DNA of 64,000 nt, from positions 3,171,505-3,235,504 of the forward strand of contig NZ_CP056123.1 in assembly GCF_018219155.1 (NCBI RefSeq). Direction: 5' to 3'. The position numbers were made by a program, and so were the translations under genes. Source of the DNA: Moritella sp. 24. GTDB lineage: Bacteria; Pseudomonadota; Gammaproteobacteria; Enterobacterales; Moritellaceae. Below are positions 48,549-57,817 of the stretch, one piece after another; the stretch's first letter is position 1; every line of letters begins with the position of its first letter. Under the pieces are notes generated by a model that did no database searches, was not told the DNA's origin, and worked only from the letters and a program-made list of their open reading frames with translations.

Positions 48549-48860
48549 CTAGGATACCGTTATCTGCCACTGGTGCTCTGACGCTGCCACTTGCAGGTAA
48601 CGGTCAAAATTTTGTAACAGGGTATCTGCACAACTCGATAGTTCGACATACGACTTCCCTTCTTCAGGAAAAGTATGCACCGCAGCATGGCTTTCAGCCA
48701 ATAACCACAACGCTGTATAACCTTGTGGCTGAAAGTAGTGTTCTACAAAGTTCAATACGGTAAAACCCGCGGCTTCGAGATCCGCTGAAATAACACGTTT
48801 CAACGCTTCACTATCACAACAGCTTAACCACCAGCGTTGATTATATATTTTTGCTTCCAT
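48549..48860 (-). CDS. S-adenosylmethionine decarboxylase-like proenzyme (SpeD family, minimal)
   Basis: The 103-residue protein resembles the small class of AdoMet decarboxylases found in Thermotoga and Bacillus. Ser57 in LAESHAAVHTF, His62 and Cys77 (ELSSCA) are spaced +5 and +20, exactly as the cleavage Ser, processing His and catalytic Cys of that class. The usual FTCG is replaced by SSCA. It would yield a pyruvoyl enzyme that makes decarboxylated AdoMet, the aminopropyl donor for the aminopropyltransferase encoded 56 bp upstream. The ATG at 48860 is chosen over a GTG at 48872. Confidence 0.75.
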   Translation of the reverse strand: MEAKIYNQRWWLSCCDSEALKRVISADLEAAGFTVLNFVEHYFQPQGYTALWLLAESHAAVHTFPEEGKSYVELSSCADTLLQNFDRYLQVAASEHQWQITVS

Positions 48861-48916
48861 AATTATATTCACTTACTAAAATACTTTATGCTTGATAACG
48901 AATGGCTAATTAACCG

Positions 48917-50665
48917 CTAATTCTTATATAGCTCTGATTCTGTTTGCCATGCTTCGCGATTATAATCGTATAACACACCAGAACCTAAACGATTAATTTC
49001 AATGGTATCCATCTTGTCATAGAAGTTACCAGGGAACACAAAAGAAGCTAACAAGAACTCCTTATTCAACCAGTTCGATGGCACAGGCAAGGTTTCCACA
49101 TCACCAATACGTCGACTCGGTGATTTACCTCGTGTCGTGGCAATCGTCCAGCCCCACTGCCCAAATGAGGGAATATTGCGTTGGTACTGTTCAACATGTA
49201 AAAAGCCTGCTTGTTTCACTGTTTTACCAATACTTAAAAAGGCTTTTTGCGCATGATAAGGTGATGTCGATTGTATTGCTAACGCACCATCAGCCGCCAA
49301 TAATTGGCGCACCTGATTATAAAAATAATCACTGTAAAGCTTATTCAAATCAGGATGATTCGGATCAGGTAAGTCAATAATGATGGTATCGAATTTAGCC
49401 CCTTCATCGAGTAGTTTTTCAATTTGTAAAAATGCATCTGTCGCATAAAGCGTTAAACGAGAGTCTTGTAACGACGCTTCGTTTAGCTTCAGCATACGTT
49501 GCTTGATCGCTTCTGGCGCCGCGTAATCAACCGTATCGGCACCAAATAACGCCAATAGTTCCGCATCTAAATCGACTAAGGTCACCGCTTTAACAGGCCA
49601 GCGCAGTACATTACGTAGTGCTAAACCATCACCACCACCAATAATCAAAATATTATCATGACGGTTTGATGCAAGCATGGCCGGATACACTAATAAATCA
49701 TGATACAACTGCTCATCCACACTCGAAAATTGTAAATGACCATTAATAAATAAATCCGTCACAGGGTCTACTTGGTTTTTCAAATAACGCTCTGTCACCA
49801 CCACATGCTGGTATTTTGTTGACTGTGAATAAATCACTTTGTCTTTATACAGTACACTACTTAATTGAGCTAACCAGCCTGTCCCTAAAGTTAAAATAAC
49901 CGTAAATAAAACAATTAATAACAGGTGACAGACGAATAGTAATTTAGCCCAACGGATCTTATCTTGATAACGCCATAGAAACGCCAGTCCCGCAATAATA
50001 TTAAATAATGCAGTCCACGCTGCCGCCTCCATAATCGGTAACGACAACATGATTAGAACCCAAATAGCCGCACCAATACCCGCACCAATATAATCAGCGC
50101 CGTAAATAGTACCCGCATTATTTTCTAAAAAATGACCATAAACTTGCTGGCGAACACGTGCAATCAGCGGGATTTCCATACCAATAAAAATACCGAGGAT
50201 TAACCCGAATACATAAGGCATGAACTTCGCTATTTTTTCCAACTGTTGCGGCAAATAACCATCAAGTACAATGTTACTGGGTAAATTAAACGTCGCCGAT
50301 AACAACTGTGGTAAGCTATAACTTACAGCAATCATCGCCGAAATAACCAAAATACAGCTCATGCCGATTAATGCAATTAAAGCCTCTAGCCACGCGAATG
50401 CAGTAAACGCATCTTTAAACCAGCGCGCTAAAAATGCACCGATACCCATCGCTACAATCATGGTGCCAATCATCGCATAAATGGCGCTTTCAACAGAACC
50501 TAATACCCTACCCGCATAATGCGACAGCAAGTATTCGTAAATCAAACCGCACCCTGCAAGTACAATCATGACTGAAATTAATAATACATCGTGAAACAAC
50601 AATGTACGTTTACGATCCTGTGCCTGCTTTGTTTTATTATCACTATTTACAACTGAGTGTGTCAC
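48917..50665 (-). CDS. membrane-anchored spermidine synthase-like aminopropyltransferase
   Basis: The 582-residue protein has an N-terminal membrane domain of about seven helices (residues 25-265) fused to a C-terminal SpeE-like methyltransferase-fold domain. The domain has a small beta-hairpin start (KYQHVVVTERY), the nucleotide-binding IIGGGDGLALRNVLRW, then TLVDLDAEL and FDTIIIDLPDPNHPDLNKLYS. The acidic residue after the sixth strand (IIIDLPDP) stands where SpeE has its catalytic Asp (usually D-x-TDP). The membrane half is of the kind seen in two-domain SpeE homologues. Substrate is unknown; pairing with a SpeD-like gene supports aminopropyl transfer. Confidence 0.8.
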   Translation of the reverse strand: MTHSVVNSDNKTKQAQDRKRTLLFHDVLLISVMIVLAGCGLIYEYLLSHYAGRVLGSVESAIYAMIGTMIVAMGIGAFLARWFKDAFTAFAWLEALIALIGMSCILVISAMIAVSYSLPQLLSATFNLPSNIVLDGYLPQQLEKIAKFMPYVFGLILGIFIGMEIPLIARVRQQVYGHFLENNAGTIYGADYIGAGIGAAIWVLIMLSLPIMEAAAWTALFNIIAGLAFLWRYQDKIRWAKLLFVCHLLLIVLFTVILTLGTGWLAQLSSVLYKDKVIYSQSTKYQHVVVTERYLKNQVDPVTDLFINGHLQFSSVDEQLYHDLLVYPAMLASNRHDNILIIGGGDGLALRNVLRWPVKAVTLVDLDAELLALFGADTVDYAAPEAIKQRMLKLNEASLQDSRLTLYATDAFLQIEKLLDEGAKFDTIIIDLPDPNHPDLNKLYSDYFYNQVRQLLAADGALAIQSTSPYHAQKAFLSIGKTVKQAGFLHVEQYQRNIPSFGQWGWTIATTRGKSPSRRIGDVETLPVPSNWLNKEFLLASFVFPGNFYDKMDTIEINRLGSGVLYDYNREAWQTESELYKN

Positions 50666-50850
50666 GCAATGCCTTATTGGATTTTAATTGATGTTTAGCG
50701 GATTAAGCCAAGGGTTAAAACTTAAAAAGCCCAAACTCAAACACACTATCAGCATGACGAATACTGAGTAACGTAATTGAATTTGAGCATATCTATTATT
50801 TAACGATGAAACCTATTACTTAGTAATGCGAGCTGTACTTTAATAAGTCA

Positions 50851-51741
50851 TTAGCTACCAAGTAATGTTGCCATTGTTAAGCCGACTGAAAACGACACGG
50901 TTGCAGAAATAACAGCAACACCAATGTTCTTTTGACGAATAACCTCATCCGCAATATCCACACCAGAGAGAATCACTTTGATGGTGATTAATTGTAGAAT
51001 CGAAAAGATAATCACACTGATAACAGCAAAGAATGCCCAATACATCAGACTTAAACCAATGTTATCGGCAGCATACGGAGCAAGACCCGTCGCAGCAGTG
51101 ATAGCCAGACCTGAACCAACAAGGAAACCAGCATAGCGAATACCAACAGCAAGGTTATCATCTAAGATAAGCTGTTGTAGACAATCGCCTGTACGTTTAA
51201 ATAAGCGCACGCGGTATTTACTGACCAATAACATAATGACGTTTGCCACAACAAATGCCGCTATCACAACAGGTAATCCATGCCAGCCTTCCGTTAATAC
51301 CCAAATCAACGCAGAACGTACAACGATAGCAACAGTCACAACATGACCAAAATCAACAAAGGCAGCTGTCACATTGCCTTTCACAATTTCATCATGCAGA
51401 CTGACTTTTTGTAATGTCACTTTATCTTGGAAAAAATGACCAGCTTTAATTAAGGCGATAGCTAATAAACCATAACCAGTCATCTGTGTTGCTTCTTCAA
51501 ATAATGAATCAGCAAAATCGCCACTTGTCACACCCGTTAATACGATAGCAAGTCCTGCTAAGCCTGCGGCAAAGCTGATACCAAAAGCAAAGTTATCGCG
51601 TTTTGCAATCTCATCATTGGCATGCAGGTTTGATACCCAGCCTTTAATCATTTTTAAACTAACGAATAAAGCAATAATGATAATAAAATCAATAATCAGT
51701 GCTTGTGTCGTCCACATAGTCAATCCATCAAACTCGTACAT
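50851..51741 (-). CDS. DUF350 domain-containing membrane protein
   Basis: The 296-residue protein has eight hydrophobic segments and two repeated DUF350 (YjfL-like) units; the repeats share NFAFGISFAAGLAGLAIVL in the first and NLAVGIRYAGFLVGSGLAI in the second. Function of DUF350 is unknown. E. coli YjfL is a single-unit version in a locus with a glutathionylspermidine-synthase-like gene. GGAGAG is well placed before the ATG at 51741. It lies between the SpeE-like gene (185 bp) and the lipoprotein gene (60 bp), all in one direction. Confidence 0.85.
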   Translation of the reverse strand: MYEFDGLTMWTTQALIIDFIIIIALFVSLKMIKGWVSNLHANDEIAKRDNFAFGISFAAGLAGLAIVLTGVTSGDFADSLFEEATQMTGYGLLAIALIKAGHFFQDKVTLQKVSLHDEIVKGNVTAAFVDFGHVVTVAIVVRSALIWVLTEGWHGLPVVIAAFVVANVIMLLVSKYRVRLFKRTGDCLQQLILDDNLAVGIRYAGFLVGSGLAITAATGLAPYAADNIGLSLMYWAFFAVISVIIFSILQLITIKVILSGVDIADEVIRQKNIGVAVISATVSFSVGLTMATLLGS

Positions 51742-51801
51742 ACTTAACTCTCCATAACTGTTCTATCTGTTTACTCACGGTCATCTTTTATTACGGTTTT
51801 T

Positions 51802-52794
51802 TTATTTACCGCGACTGACACCACGTGATGTACGACTGCCACTATTACGGAATGACCCCGTATTGCTTGTGGCCTTGTTACTCGCTGGTTTATTGCTACT
51901 CGTGAACGACTTTTTCGGTTTCGCATAACTACTCACCGTTTTAGTCGGGGTGTAACTAGATCGGCTTAAACCCGCAGACCCAGTACGTTTCTTCGCATAA
52001 GGCGAGCTAAACGATTGGCCTTTACGTTGGAACGATTTACGCGTTCGCGTTTCAACAGCAGCTTGCTGAACACTTTGTTTAGGGCTGGTATAACGCGAAC
52101 GTCCATAATCGCTATAATAGCTATAACGACGGTTACGACTCCAGTTTGAATACTCAACACGATTCGTTAAATCACCAAACATACGGTACATGCCGTACCA
52201 TTGCCAAAAGCTGGTGCCACCACTACCCGATTGCCAGCCACCATAGTTTGGATTACCAACCATTTGGCTACCAGCGCCATAGTCTGTACCATCACCACCG
52301 CTTTTTTCTGCCATTTGGCTAATCGCACCGACACGCGCCAGTTGACCATCAGACATATCAGCTAATACATTGATCGGATCGGTTAACGCATCATTAAACA
52401 AGCTAAGCTTAGCGGCTTCTTGGATACGAGTTATTTCATCAAGTAACGCATTTGCATTCTCTAATGTTACCGTTTCAGATTGAACATCACCCAAACGCAT
52501 CGTCAGGTTTTGATATAATGGTCCCTGTCGGGTTGCATCTTCAGCAATCAGGTTCGCGATACGTGTTAATTCTGGTTTTTGCTGTTTTAAAACAGCGGCA
52601 TACTCGGCCAGTAACCGTGCATTACGTACACTACCTCGTTCAATGGCTTGGCCTAGCCTATCGATATCACCCTGTGTTTTAGTGATCCCTTGCGTTATTG
52701 TAACTTGAGTTTGCTCTAATTTTGATTCACAGCCAGCTAACAGCTGTAAAATAAATAACAGACTTATTAACTTCCATGGTTTAATCATTGACAT
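51802..52794 (-). CDS. lipoprotein with coiled coil and low-complexity Arg/Ser/Tyr-rich tail
   Basis: The 330-residue product has lipobox LLAGC (Cys22), a helical region to about residue 150 with coiled-coil periodicity, then a Gly/Trp/Tyr-rich segment (PNYGGWQSGSGG, FWQWYGMYRMFG) and a C-terminal ~110 residues dominated by Ser, Arg, Lys, Thr, Tyr and Gly (YSDYGRSRYTSP, GSRTSRGVSRGK). The tail is strongly basic and probably disordered. I do not recognise the family. Genomic place suggests a periplasmic partner of the DUF350/SpeE-like genes. AGGTGG precedes the ATG. Confidence 0.75.
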   Translation of the reverse strand: MSMIKPWKLISLLFILQLLAGCESKLEQTQVTITQGITKTQGDIDRLGQAIERGSVRNARLLAEYAAVLKQQKPELTRIANLIAEDATRQGPLYQNLTMRLGDVQSETVTLENANALLDEITRIQEAAKLSLFNDALTDPINVLADMSDGQLARVGAISQMAEKSGGDGTDYGAGSQMVGNPNYGGWQSGSGGTSFWQWYGMYRMFGDLTNRVEYSNWSRNRRYSYYSDYGRSRYTSPKQSVQQAAVETRTRKSFQRKGQSFSSPYAKKRTGSAGLSRSSYTPTKTVSSYAKPKKSFTSSNKPASNKATSNTGSFRNSGSRTSRGVSRGK

Positions 52795-52942: not shown

Positions 52943-55348
52943 TTATCTATTTTGTAAGCGATTATAATCTAACAAGCCCGCATTAATAGGCTGTAATTGT
53001 TGGTTTAGCGCTTGAATCATATCGCTGTGTTGCCAGAATCGAGGATCTGAACGCCTTACGCCATAATTGTCTAACCAAGCAGCATAATCATCAGCCGTTC
53101 TCATCGCCGCTAAATGTGCCACAAATGTCGGTAACTTGTCAGCTTCAACCGTTAAATACACACTTGGGTAATCACCAATAATGCCACTCACCACAGTTAG
53201 CGTATCTTCAGCTGGTAATAAGTTTGACTCCTCATCCAGTAAACTCGACATATTACTGTGGGCAACATTTTTCAATAATGTATAAACACGCTTTTTACTG
53301 CCATCATTAACGAGTAATACCGAGATCTCTGGCAATTGGTTAATTGGAGCCCCCTCAAGCGCGGTTAATACCCGCATCAATGCGGTTTCTTTACTTGGCG
53401 TGCCCGGTTGAAGCAACGCATATTGACTCGGTAATACTTTAGCCAAGCGCTGCTCTAATAGGCCAAATAGTTCCGTTTTATGATCTTTTGTTTTGTAATT
53501 AATATCCGTATCTTTCGCCACAAAATGATCATTATCTTCTAAGTATTCTTTTAGGTTAATGCCTTCATCACGGTACCAGTAATCATGTTCTTTTTGACGG
53601 CTTTCTTTAGGCAGCAGATTTAAAAAGTTAAACTCCGCTTCCATACGTAAAAAGTCCATATATAAACGCGTATTCAGCTGATGACCGACATTACCATATA
53701 CATCAAAACCAGCGACTAACAAATAGTGAATGCGTTCAAGTAGTGGATAGTCAATTAACCACGCTGTTTTAGGCTGCTGACCGACTAACCCTTTAACGAC
53801 CGTCGCACTATCAAAATGACGGAAAATAGTCAGAGCCGCATTATCATTGCCCTTTTTATCTTGGTTAGCTTTTGTTAGATTTCGGCCATCCCAAATCAAA
53901 TGTAAATCAAGCAATGAATCCTGTTCAAATAATTCATTCACCTTCTGCTGTTTGGCATCTAAATAGTTATTTTGTGCTTGCGAATATTGGAACCAGTTAA
54001 CCACTAAACCAGCGTCACTTTCAGACTCTGCTGGTAGGCGTAAATGTGCCTTTTGCTGAGACAAGAAGTTGTCACTATTAAGTCCAGCTTGTGCCTCGCG
54101 TGCGACAAAAAATACCCAAAAATGATCGTCAATCACATTCACCGCTATCTGACCACGACACACAGGCCCTTTAATAAAGCCCATAATGGTATTTTGAGCC
54201 TCTTGTAGCATGAACTTATAACGAGACTGTGGTGGAATCGCTTCAAACGTGATGAAAGGATTTGAGGCGACCTCCGCTTTGTAGCTTGGGAAATGAGTTA
54301 CGTTATAGTTAGGCTGATAAAATATCTCTTCAAATGTCGACATACGAGCGGTATTAAGCGCATAAGGTAAATGCGTTTTAGCTAAAATAGTTTCACGTTC
54401 ACGCTGTAAACGGTAATACACACGGTCAACCTTAGGGTCGTCATAAGGTCGACGAGTGGCAATAATATCAATGGGCTGACCGGGAGGCGTTTTAGAACGG
54501 ACAAGCTTAAAGTAGTCCATATCTAACTGAGTAGAATACGCTGCATCTAACTCACTAAAATACATATGGGATAAAAACAAATGTTCATAGATATAACGAG
54601 AGACTAGCTGGTTCTTGAGTGATGGTTGATTTAACCACGTTTCCCAATACGTGATTTGAGCAAGAATATCTTCAGATAACGCAGGTAATGGCGACATCTT
54701 TGCGCCCTTCGTTAACCATGACGATAATAATGAAAACTCATCATTGTTTAATGCCGGTAAACCATAAGGCATCCCGCCTGTTGGGTGTTTTAATTCATAT
54801 TCATCAAATTCGTTAATCGTACTGCATTGCTGTTCTCGGTTAAGTGAAAAATCATAACTGTCAGGCAATACCTTACCCGAGACAGCTTGACCGCTTAACG
54901 CATCTCGCTGTTTTAGCACCAATGAGCGATACAGTACACTTGCCATTAGGTTTGCTTCTTCAACTTGTTTTCGCTCATTTAAAACAGATGTAAAACCTTT
55001 TTCACGCCACGCTTGTATTGACGTTGCGTCATCATATAACCGCGTAGGAAGTACAGATCGTAATCGAGAACCACTGTGAACCAATGCTTTACTTAATCCA
55101 CGGTCAATTCCCTCTGGAGAGGTGAGTTTTAGCTGACAAGGCGCATCATAACAACCGTGACAAACAACACAGCGCTGATTTAACAAGGGTTGTACATCAT
55201 TAAGGTAAGTTGACGCTTGTGAACTTAAAGGAGGAACAATTCGGTCCTGAACCTCTTCAGCACCATACATCACATCATAGTTTACAACGAGCACGCCCGC
55301 GCAACCTGACAGCAGCATAAACAAAATAAAAAAGACAGAACGAGACAT
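52943..55348 (-). CDS. cti: fatty acid cis/trans isomerase
   Basis: Cti converts cis to trans unsaturated phospholipid acyl chains in place, stiffening the membrane under solvent, heat or pressure stress. The 801-residue product has an N-terminal membrane anchor/lipobox-like start (LLSGCAG), a cytochrome c-type haem site CVVCH (about residues 60-64) and long helical domains with the family motifs GGMPYGLPALN and FISFEA-like FITFEAIPPQSRYKF. The frame starts six bases earlier, but AAAGGA spaced 6 bp from the ATG at 55348 supports the latter. It lies 148 bp upstream of the lipoprotein gene and could be in the same unit. Confidence 0.92.
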   Translation of the reverse strand: MSRSVFFILFMLLSGCAGVLVVNYDVMYGAEEVQDRIVPPLSSQASTYLNDVQPLLNQRCVVCHGCYDAPCQLKLTSPEGIDRGLSKALVHSGSRLRSVLPTRLYDDATSIQAWREKGFTSVLNERKQVEEANLMASVLYRSLVLKQRDALSGQAVSGKVLPDSYDFSLNREQQCSTINEFDEYELKHPTGGMPYGLPALNNDEFSLLSSWLTKGAKMSPLPALSEDILAQITYWETWLNQPSLKNQLVSRYIYEHLFLSHMYFSELDAAYSTQLDMDYFKLVRSKTPPGQPIDIIATRRPYDDPKVDRVYYRLQRERETILAKTHLPYALNTARMSTFEEIFYQPNYNVTHFPSYKAEVASNPFITFEAIPPQSRYKFMLQEAQNTIMGFIKGPVCRGQIAVNVIDDHFWVFFVAREAQAGLNSDNFLSQQKAHLRLPAESESDAGLVVNWFQYSQAQNNYLDAKQQKVNELFEQDSLLDLHLIWDGRNLTKANQDKKGNDNAALTIFRHFDSATVVKGLVGQQPKTAWLIDYPLLERIHYLLVAGFDVYGNVGHQLNTRLYMDFLRMEAEFNFLNLLPKESRQKEHDYWYRDEGINLKEYLEDNDHFVAKDTDINYKTKDHKTELFGLLEQRLAKVLPSQYALLQPGTPSKETALMRVLTALEGAPINQLPEISVLLVNDGSKKRVYTLLKNVAHSNMSSLLDEESNLLPAEDTLTVVSGIIGDYPSVYLTVEADKLPTFVAHLAAMRTADDYAAWLDNYGVRRSDPRFWQHSDMIQALNQQLQPINAGLLDYNRLQNR

Positions 55349-55791
55349 TAGCATCCTTTCACAGTCAGTACTTAATTAAAAACGTAAAACACTAAGTGCT
55401 TTATAACAAAAGACTGATCATGATATACCGAGCCAAGTTACAAATACAAGTTGAGGCTCGACTAGCCTATTCAGCGACCAGCATAAAATATACCGCCAAC
55501 TTATGTATTATGGTTAATCAGCGCCCATTTCCCCACGATAAATTAATTTTATTGTAAGAAGTTGTCAGCGAAAAGTCGGTATAAAGGTATTTATCAAACT
55601 AAATAGTACAATTAATCATAATAAAGTACTTAAATATGCTAAAAATTCGCATTAAAAATAACACATATTGTGACAACGATTCCCATACCAATTACGGATA
55701 GGTTACATAGTTTTAAATATGTTTATAATCCACCAAACTATTTAGTGCGGACAGACCGACACTCTACATTAAACTATCCAAGGTAGGACAA
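55349..55791. other. intergenic region between cti and the two-component system
   Basis: This 443-bp AT-rich region must hold promoters for cti (leftward) and the response regulator (rightward). I see no gene in it. A candidate sigma-70 promoter is at 55702-55729. Confidence 0.6.
55702..55729 (+). promoter_or_regulatory. candidate promoter of the rstAB-like pair
   Basis: GTTACA (55702-55707) and a perfect TATAAT (55724-55729) are 16 bp apart, 62 bp before the response-regulator start. Confidence 0.5.
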
Positions 55792-56481
55792 ATGCCTAAA
55801 ACTAGAATATTAATTGTCGAAGATGACCACGAAATTGCCCGATTAACTGCAATGTATTTAAACAGTGAAGGCTATGAAACGAAAGTTATCAATGATGGTG
55901 CGATAGCATTAAGTACCATCAAGCAATACCAACCTAACCTGCTCATTTTAGATTTAATGCTGCCAGGATTATCTGGCATGGAGATTTGTGCGCAAGCGAG
56001 AAATTTTTTCAAAGAACCTATTCTCGTATTAACAGCTTGTGATGATGAACTAAGCGAAGTGAGCTTGCTCAAGTTGGGCGCTGATGATTACCTGACAAAA
56101 CCTGTGCGCCCACATATTATGGCAGCACGCATTACAGCATTATTACGTCGCACAACAAGACACCAAAAAAGTAGATATAACACAATAGAACTCAAACGCC
56201 TTAAAATAGACCCAAGAAGACAGCGTGTTGAATTTAGAGGAAAGGCCTTAGAGCTCACCGACTCTGAATATGATCTATTATTATTATTAACCAAAAATGT
56301 TGGGCAAATCATTTCTCGAGAAGAATGCTGTCAGCAGCTACGTGGTATCGACCATGATTTTTCGGATCGTTCTATTGATATGCGAATTTCAGGCTTGCGT
56401 AAAAAGCTCAATATTGATTGTTCTACCCAACAAATAATCAAAACAGTGCGTAATAAAGGCTATATGCTAATCAATGAATAA
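55792..56481 (+). CDS. OmpR-family response regulator, RstA-like
   Basis: The 229-residue protein has a receiver domain (ILIVEDDHE, phosphoacceptor Asp in LLILDLMLPGLSG near residue 52, conserved Lys in DDYLTKPV) and a C-terminal winged helix with QLRGIDHDFSDRSIDM, RISGLRKKL and IKTVRNKGYML. The LRG-x5-DRS block matches RstA better than OmpR or PhoB. It overlaps its kinase gene by 8 bp. Targets are unknown. AGG precedes the start. Confidence 0.92.
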   Translation: MPKTRILIVEDDHEIARLTAMYLNSEGYETKVINDGAIALSTIKQYQPNLLILDLMLPGLSGMEICAQARNFFKEPILVLTACDDELSEVSLLKLGADDYLTKPVRPHIMAARITALLRRTTRHQKSRYNTIELKRLKIDPRRQRVEFRGKALELTDSEYDLLLLLTKNVGQIISREECCQQLRGIDHDFSDRSIDMRISGLRKKLNIDCSTQQIIKTVRNKGYMLINE

Positions 56482-57817
56482 TCGTATCACCTCACTATTT
56501 TCGCATATTTATATATGCATAGTGATCGCCATCTGCGCTTGTATTTTATTAACCGTGTGGTTAATGAATATATTTGCCTATCAAAAAGATACTGAGCATT
56601 TTTATACCAACACGATGCAAGTTTATCGAGAGCTAGAGTCTCAGCGTAATAGTGTGTCAATGAGTGCTGATGATTTTTATCAGCGCGCTGAAATAGATTT
56701 ATATAACTACAATATTGAAAAAATAACGTTATTAAAAAGCCTATCTCCTTGCCAGAAATGTGAATATATAAAGACGATGAATAAAGTCGATATTTACATG
56801 CAAGAGAGTAACGAATACTTAGCGGTATACCGACTCAGTAACGCAATTGCAGCGATCACGATCAGTGAAGATCTTTATGATGCAAATGTCGAAAAAGGTG
56901 TGGGTGATGATATCATCTTACTTGGTACCTTTGCTTTCATGTTATTTCTTATCGCGTTAAACCTCTATCGACCGATTCGTAAGTTACAATTACAGATAAA
57001 TCATTTAGTTGCCATCAATCATACCTTCGGTAATGGCGATTTAACTGCGCGCGTTGATATTAAGACAACCCCTTTACTTCATGATTTATCAACGAGCTTT
57101 AATGCGATGGCAAAAGCGATTACCGAACGTGTTGATGAAGGTGCTATATTCGCGCAAGCCTTACCCCATGAGGTAAGAACACCGCTTAGCCGAATACAAC
57201 TCGCAGTGGGTCTATTAAAGCAGGATCTAAAACAAAAGAAACACACCGATTTACTTGATAGTATTGATGATTATGTAGATGACATGGTTGAGTTATCGGA
57301 ACAAATAACCACATTTTCACGCGTAAGTTCTAAACACTCTTGTTGTAATGAAGACGAGCAATCAATTGAATTAGCTCACTTCATTCATTCAAGAATAATG
57401 CTCTATGATACGCACAGTAATATCAATATAAGCTTCCACGCTGAAGACGAATCCACGATTCAAAGCAGCCCAATGTGTTTACGTTTAGCCTTTGATAACT
57501 TACTAAAAAATATGTTAAATCACGCTAGTTCTCACGTTGAAGTCAACGTCATTCAACTTGCTAAAACCATTAAAATCACCGTGGAAGATGACGGTCCCGG
57601 TATACCGCCAGAAAACTATCACCAGATTTTCATTCCTTTTGCGCGTTTAGATAAAAGCCGCAGCCGTAAAACCGGTGGTTTAGGCCTCGGCTTACCCATT
57701 GCCAAAAGCGCATCAAAACGCTTAGGCGGGCGAATTATCGTATCAAAAAGCAAACTAGGAGGGGCTAAGTTCACACTCATCATTCCCACCCAGGCGAAAA
57801 AACAAGGACTCATATAG
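56474..57817 (+). CDS. sensor histidine kinase, RstB-like, with periplasmic CxxC
   Basis: The 447-residue kinase has membrane helices at about 10-32 and 145-165, a periplasmic domain of ~110 residues, a HAMP domain, HisKA with the phospho-His in LPHEVRTPLSR and an ATP-binding domain with NLLKNMLNHA, EDDGPGIPPE and GGLGLGLPIA. The periplasmic part contains SPCQKCEYIK, a CxxC pair that could be a disulfide or metal site. The gene overlaps the regulator by 8 bp. The stimulus is unknown; in E. coli RstB responds through PhoPQ. Confidence 0.9.
   Translation: MNNRITSLFSHIYICIVIAICACILLTVWLMNIFAYQKDTEHFYTNTMQVYRELESQRNSVSMSADDFYQRAEIDLYNYNIEKITLLKSLSPCQKCEYIKTMNKVDIYMQESNEYLAVYRLSNAIAAITISEDLYDANVEKGVGDDIILLGTFAFMLFLIALNLYRPIRKLQLQINHLVAINHTFGNGDLTARVDIKTTPLLHDLSTSFNAMAKAITERVDEGAIFAQALPHEVRTPLSRIQLAVGLLKQDLKQKKHTDLLDSIDDYVDDMVELSEQITTFSRVSSKHSCCNEDEQSIELAHFIHSRIMLYDTHSNINISFHAEDESTIQSSPMCLRLAFDNLLKNMLNHASSHVEVNVIQLAKTIKITVEDDGPGIPPENYHQIFIPFARLDKSRSRKTGGLGLGLPIAKSASKRLGGRIIVSKSKLGGAKFTLIIPTQAKKQGLI

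Follow-up and report, generated by a model that had tools for sequence, protein, structure and literature searches.

The window analyzed here, 64,000 nt of the Moritella sp. 24 genome (contig NZ_CP056123.1, positions 3,171,505 to 3,235,504), carries on its minus strand a unit of four genes, transcribed in the order lipoprotein, DUF350 protein, aminopropyltransferase fused to a membrane domain (membrane-SpeE) and S-adenosylmethionine (AdoMet) decarboxylase (AdoMetDC; here SpeD). Judging from sequence comparisons, the unit is probably a Moritella-specific variant of the AdoMetDC/membrane-SpeE/DUF350 module, in which SpeD would feed decarboxylated AdoMet (dcAdoMet) to SpeE and SpeE would aminopropylate a membrane acceptor other than a polyamine. 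Genome (G) and locus (L) numbers below are our own identifiers.

A Four-Gene Unit Conserved in Moritella

The open reading frames (ORFs) of all four genes were intact, and profile searches matched the DUF350, SpeE and SpeD families, in agreement with the gene calls of a first-pass annotation of the window. Gaps of 60 bp (lipoprotein/DUF350), 185 bp (DUF350/SpeE) and 44 bp (SpeE/SpeD) separate the genes. A terminator scan yielded seven candidates in the stretch covered versus 6.5 expected, none of them separating the four genes beyond chance. The DUF350, SpeE and SpeD genes lay side by side in all 11 Moritella genomes searched, and the full four-gene order was mapped at nine Moritella loci, window included, in each of which the lipoprotein gene was verified. 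The conservation of this order in Moritella far exceeds chance.

The Membrane-SpeE Fusion

Membrane-SpeE (48917–50665, minus strand; 582 aa) combines an N-terminal hydrophobic membrane domain (residues ~20–265) with a C-terminal aminopropyltransferase domain (residues ~270–545). It scored 600.8 bits against NF002956 (PRK03612; cut-off 472) and 103.6 bits against Spermine_synth (PF01564) over residues 318–514. The membrane location proposed in the first-pass annotation is upheld by the ~265 mostly hydrophobic residues that precede the aminopropyltransferase domain and by the NF002956 match above cut-off. A scan of named loci, queried with the window SpeE alone, returned six, and the nearest (92–94% identical) were those of M. 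dasanensis and Moritella sp. PE36, JT01 and DT_65.

Like spermidine synthases of known structure (solved relatives, 7xif and 1iy9), the C-terminal domain contains GGGDG and D-x-x-D-P (here DLPDP). An alignment of 13 full-length SpeE copies showed GGGDG, the acidic residue that binds ribose and the two aspartates of D-x-x-D-P in every copy; the full catalytic set is retained at ~50% overall identity. This bears on the proposal that the SpeE domain is a sensor, which on binding dcAdoMet or a polyamine would gate a DUF350/PspA membrane-maintenance machinery, with little or no transfer. The repeated association with PspA, DUF2170 and DUF4178 fits such a role, and Ravi et al. (PMC11237479) proposed that polyamine concentration or aminopropylation is monitored. 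The catalytic residues would be superfluous in a pure sensor, however, so their retention, both acidic residues of D-x-x-D-P included, counts against this proposal, and we consider it unlikely.

SpeD and the Aminopropyl Donor

The SpeD gene (48549–48872, minus strand) encodes a short class 1b AdoMetDC proenzyme of 107 aa, read from a GTG start; an alternative ATG lies at 48860. The protein scored 57.9 bits against PF02675 (cut-off 25) and 49.5 bits against the NCBIfam AdoMetDC model, below its cut-off of 75.65. The features of class 1b, namely ESH with the pyruvoyl Ser61 and the catalytic His66 and Cys81, were invariant in the alignment and are equivalent to S63, H68 and C83 of T. maritima. 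A profile search of the window genome found this single AdoMetDC and no second SpeD.

SpeD descendants that act as pyruvoyl ornithine or arginine decarboxylases (ODC or ADC; SpeDC/SpeDA) are widespread, phages included (PMC10407285). A neofunctionalised enzyme of this kind would supply the acceptor (putrescine or agmatine) and not the donor, and the NCBIfam score below cut-off would be in line with it. A proline marks AdoMetDC versus ADC, and a diagnostic Gln, Thr, Phe or Tyr or loss of the Pro marks pyruvoyl ODC/ADC. Moritella SpeD keeps both central-region prolines, which is consistent with the AdoMetDC-marking Pro, although the exact position of that residue is not stated in the literature text. 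Moreover, the nearest tested homologue, the SpeD of Croceibacter phage P2559S (54% identity over 90 aa), is a bona fide AdoMetDC with which E. coli BL21 delta-speD regains spermidine (PMC9992855). Neofunctionalisation of the Moritella enzyme is therefore highly improbable.

We then looked at AdoMetDC co-occurrence in a sample of 249 Pseudomonadota genomes, 27 with full-length membrane-SpeE and 222 without. PF02675 was present in 22/27 membrane-SpeE genomes vs. 47/222 others (Fisher's test, odds ratio 16, p = 9e-10, kinship uncorrected), and SpeD lay within 10 kb of membrane-SpeE in 13 of the 27. All seven order-level membrane-SpeE genomes without PF02675 (G014, G020, G021, G025, G044, G045 and G058; loci L154–L160) possessed a class 2 AdoMetDC (PF01536), a eukaryote-type enzyme in bacteria; none of 17 other genomes searched for PF01536 had a match above cut-off, with one sub-threshold match in G059. 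An argument against dcAdoMet as the donor, that 7/10 related genomes were without AdoMetDC, was dropped, as all seven are PF01536-positive. Two Pseudoalteromonas genomes gave weak SpeD-profile matches only (E ~0.008), in frames of 310 and 294 aa, the length of class 1a.

Every membrane-SpeE genome examined in the order thus appears to encode an AdoMetDC, although the class (1a, 1b or 2) is interchangeable. That three enzyme classes with the same product accompany the same SpeE is the strongest argument for dcAdoMet as its donor, which we regard as well supported. The flow from SpeD to SpeE assumed in the first-pass annotation is supported by this co-occurrence with AdoMetDC of any class. The repeated pairing makes dcAdoMet very likely the donor, and the identity of the membrane acceptor becomes a matter of direct experiment.

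Polyamine Synthesis

The unit had initially been taken for a polyamine module. In ordinary polyamine synthesis at the membrane, SpeD and SpeE would convert putrescine to spermidine or another triamine, perhaps in connection with transport. Such synthesis would suit the intact state of the two catalytic domains, the hydrophobic N-terminal domain of SpeE and the NCBIfam label of membrane-SpeE as an equivalog of polyamine aminopropyltransferase. Fusions of a major facilitator superfamily (MFS) domain with a spermidine synthase (SpdSyn) domain, encoded with DUF350 and class 1b or class 2 AdoMetDC genes, reportedly do not complement a SpdSyn deletion in E. coli. Moritella has another route to (nor)spermidine, the carboxy(nor)spermidine route, for which nspC was detected above cut-off in 11/11 genomes. 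The window genome contains no canonical soluble SpeE, the only other PF01564 match being partial (39 bits), and the unit is associated with DUF350, lipoprotein and PspA genes, not with polyamine genes. Finally, bacterial membrane-SpeE homologues were shown experimentally to be uninvolved in spermidine and spermine synthesis (PMC12803844). Given nspC, the missing canonical SpeE and these homologues, spermidine synthesis by the Moritella unit is unlikely and the label of a polyamine module is not supported; polyamine synthesis at the membrane as a whole is improbable.

The PspA Half of the Operon

The lipoprotein-DUF350-SpeE order was found in 10/10 other genomes of the order with full-length membrane-SpeE. 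DUF2170-PspA follows SpeE in six of these ten loci, five of which also include DUF4178 and RHH. The gene-order check set out in the first-pass annotation gave a mixed outcome: all four genes keep their order across Moritella, whereas outside the genus the first three do so and DUF2170-PspA, or nothing recognised, replaces SpeD. The association of DUF350 and SpeE with PspA/YjfJ-type loci, which the same annotation had mentioned, is supported by the loci that continue into DUF2170-PspA. Outside Moritella, the nearest relatives are Pseudoalteromonas denitrificans and strain NBT06-2 (SpeE 75%, DUF350 77–78% identical to the Moritella proteins), and their loci run on into DUF2170-PspA-DUF4178-RHH, where Moritella has SpeD.

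The statement that no PspA gene is present was correct for the window but not for the genome, whose only PspA (G000:C1:4262176) is located ~1 Mb from the unit. It belongs to a separate operon, DUF350-DUF2170-PspA-DUF4178-RHH (L074), with a second DUF350; this second locus was checked in five Moritella genomes. With the PspA half kept elsewhere beside its own DUF350, and SpeD in its place at the unit, gene order indicates that Moritella split the operon.

A 957-aa gene adjoins the Moritella PspA operon, and genes of similar size (949–985 aa) adjoin the operon at L039, L041, L044 and L047; the one at L041 resembles glnE by eye. A fuller cluster was found in G096 (L138), with the order RHH-DUF4178-PspA-DUF2170-SpeE-DUF350-lipoprotein-M50B peptidase-like gene-SpeD. 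In two distant genomes (L135, 11217–11885; L138, 9572–10243), a gene for a Peptidase_M50B-like membrane protein separates SpeD from the rest of the SpeE/PspA cluster.

Phage-Type SpeD and Its DNA-Methylase-Like Partner

Moritella SpeD is 20–31% identical to the SpeDs of other SpeE clusters, compared with 49% for the SpeD of Croceibacter phage P2559S and 41% for that of a Borrelia turcica plasmid (trimmed alignment). On a tree with deduplicated viral SpeDs, it fell inside a clade of viral sequences (support 100), and these comparisons place it in a phage-type lineage. As no cellular Bacteroidota SpeDs are in the tree, a bacterial intermediate is possible.

A DNA-methylase-domain protein adjoins SpeD in P2559S, the Borrelia plasmid and Pseudomonas phage ZRG1 (L095, L096 and L238 among the loci); PF01555 matched the P2559S and Borrelia copies, and the homologous ZRG1 copy carries a ParB-domain annotation. 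We extended the comparison to IMG/VR viral contigs (L163–L237, L326–L403), in sets that overlap and whose related contigs are not independent events. Among 75 contigs picked by SpeD alone, 63 encoded an N6/N4 DNA-methylase-like homologue, in 61 cases at most 300 bp from SpeD (overlapping or abutting), and none had SpeE, DUF350 or PspA in the flanks. Methylase motif I in this set was G-D in 53 contigs and G-Q in four, with five unscored; beside SpeD it takes the form GD[ST]VFG. In 80 contigs picked by SpeD-free homologues, the motif was G-G in 79, nearly all G-G-S-V-R-G, and SpeD was found in none. When contigs were picked by the P2559S, ZRG1 or Borrelia methylase regardless of SpeD, 71 had D..F, with SpeD in 66 of them, always within 300 bp. 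The seven contigs of this set without D..F had no SpeD (0/7), and five of them (L363, L364, L366, L367 and L373) encode close homologues without the motif Asp (SG-GAFG or similar).

The GGGDG motif of aminopropyltransferases contributes its Asp to contact with the amine of the dcAdoMet aminopropyl group. With Asp gained and Arg lost, methylase motif I shows the change that an enzyme would require to exchange AdoMet for dcAdoMet. Since this Asp covaries with the presence of SpeD, the phage methylase is a candidate user of dcAdoMet, which suggests that the phage pair may aminopropylate DNA. The candidate products, aminopropyl adenine or cytosine, have a clear sequence signature, and no description of them was found in the literature searched. 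For the SpeD-DNA methylase pair, likewise, nothing relevant was found, with preprints and most subscription journals outside the search. SpeD-free homologues of the same methylase also occur in Mycobacterium phage Vincenzo (L243) and Pseudanabaena phage Pam4 (L245), where they overlap a 'carboxylate deaminase' gene or fall inside an ORF with a PLP-dependent enzyme annotation, contexts hinting at further AdoMet-derived DNA modifications.

That the Moritella SpeD comes from a phage lineage normally found beside a DNA-modifying enzyme suggests uses of dcAdoMet beyond polyamines. We tentatively propose that dcAdoMet could be a general aminopropyl donor: phage SpeD would feed a methylase-like enzyme (motif I Asp for Gly, Phe for Arg) that yields aminopropylated DNA bases, and Moritella would have coupled one phage SpeD to membrane-SpeE, which would aminopropylate a membrane acceptor.

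Proposed Mechanism

The two remaining members of the unit would act alongside SpeD and SpeE. The DUF350 (YjfL-type) integral membrane protein (50851–51741, minus strand) has two repeat units, matched by PF03994 in two stretches (120.3 bits), and eight hydrophobic segments. The lipoprotein, encoded by the first gene (51802–52794, minus strand), has an LAGC lipobox and a Ser/Lys/Arg-rich tail, with 28 K/R vs. four D/E in the last 150 residues. No Pfam family matched it, and it is 40–49% identical to an equally placed lipoprotein in the 10 other genomes of the order.

In the mechanism we favor, SpeD would cleave itself at Glu60-Ser61, form the pyruvoyl group and decarboxylate AdoMet to dcAdoMet. 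Membrane-anchored SpeE would then transfer the aminopropyl group to an acceptor on the cytoplasmic side of the inner membrane. This acceptor would be something other than putrescine, most likely a lipid head group or a membrane or peptide amine. Gene context suggests DUF350 and the basic-tailed lipoprotein as the membrane and periplasmic partners. The PspA/DUF2170/DUF4178 half would act in trans from the second locus, as part of the same membrane-maintenance system.

Several observations weigh against this mechanism. A promoter could lie in the 185 bp ahead of SpeE. Two of the 27 membrane-SpeE genomes, G094 and G113 (L145 and L146), matched neither PF02675 nor PF01536. The NCBIfam equivalog label of membrane-SpeE names a polyamine enzyme. 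AlphaFold2 models of membrane-SpeE (mean pLDDT 49.6, from a shallow, 7-sequence alignment) and DUF350 (mean pLDDT 43.4, from a shallow, 6-sequence alignment) were discarded, and with pLDDT this low the position of the SpeE active site with respect to the membrane could not be read from them.

Flanking Genes

The unit is flanked by tauE (convergent) and, upstream on the same strand, by cti (52943–55354, minus strand), a fatty acid cis/trans isomerase gene (PF06934, 882 bits). The latter was considered as a fifth member of the unit and rejected because it adjoins the unit in only four of the nine Moritella loci mapped. A two-component pair lies nearby (55792–57817). Both cti and this pair may have to do with membrane stress or regulation, and their placement differs between Moritella species.

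Comparison with Known Systems

The canonical SpeD/SpeE pathway employs a soluble SpeE without a membrane domain, a feature not found in the window genome. The yjfIJKLMC-type operon contains the genes of its name, with a glutathionylspermidine synthetase-like YjfC. Operons of this type (a group described in PMC11237479) resemble the Moritella genes in that PspA and a polyamine-related enzyme accompany DUF350, but they use an ATP-grasp ligase, absent from the four-gene unit, instead of SpeD/SpeE. The SpeDs of phage P2559S (gp67) and its relatives belong to the same subfamily as Moritella SpeD (49–54% identical, nested in the tree), yet their usual partner is the N6/N4 DNA-methylase-like protein, and no membrane-SpeE, DUF350 or PspA was seen in the flanks examined.

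The role of the gene combination had been called undescribed, wrongly, because modules of this type are already published (PMC11237479; Li et al. 2019, cited there and in PMC12803844). Ravi et al. 2024 reported a lipoprotein-DUF350-SpeE-PspA operon (PMC11237479). The CesT/Tir-PspA operon of six to seven genes in the same paper (Shewanella oneidensis AAN56744-AAN56747) shares with Moritella the lipoprotein, the 8TM DUF350 and the SpeE-TM fusion, as homologous genes in the same order. The Moritella unit is without DUF2170 (the probable CesT/Tir-like member), PspA, DUF4178 and RHH, and SpeD takes their place; PspA, DUF2170 and DUF4178, which share one operon in that system, are all in the second locus.

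The clusters of AdoMetDC, MFS/SpdSyn-like fusion and DUF350 of Li et al. 2019 (Biochem J 476:2579) are, as far as PMC12803844 and PMC11237479 cite them, the same in grouping class 1b SpeD, a membrane-SpeE fusion and DUF350 together. Moritella has three features of these clusters: an AdoMetDC in the genome, an N-terminal membrane domain fused to a SpdSyn-like domain, and an adjacent DUF350. Other members have the class 2 AdoMetDC, confirmed here by PF01536. Moritella differs from the clusters so cited in that its SpeD is directly 3' of SpeE, phage-type, and distant from the other cluster SpeDs (20–31% identity). New here are the split operon, the class-independent pairing of AdoMetDC with membrane-SpeE, the SpeD nested among phage sequences, and the covariation of the methylase motif with phage SpeD.

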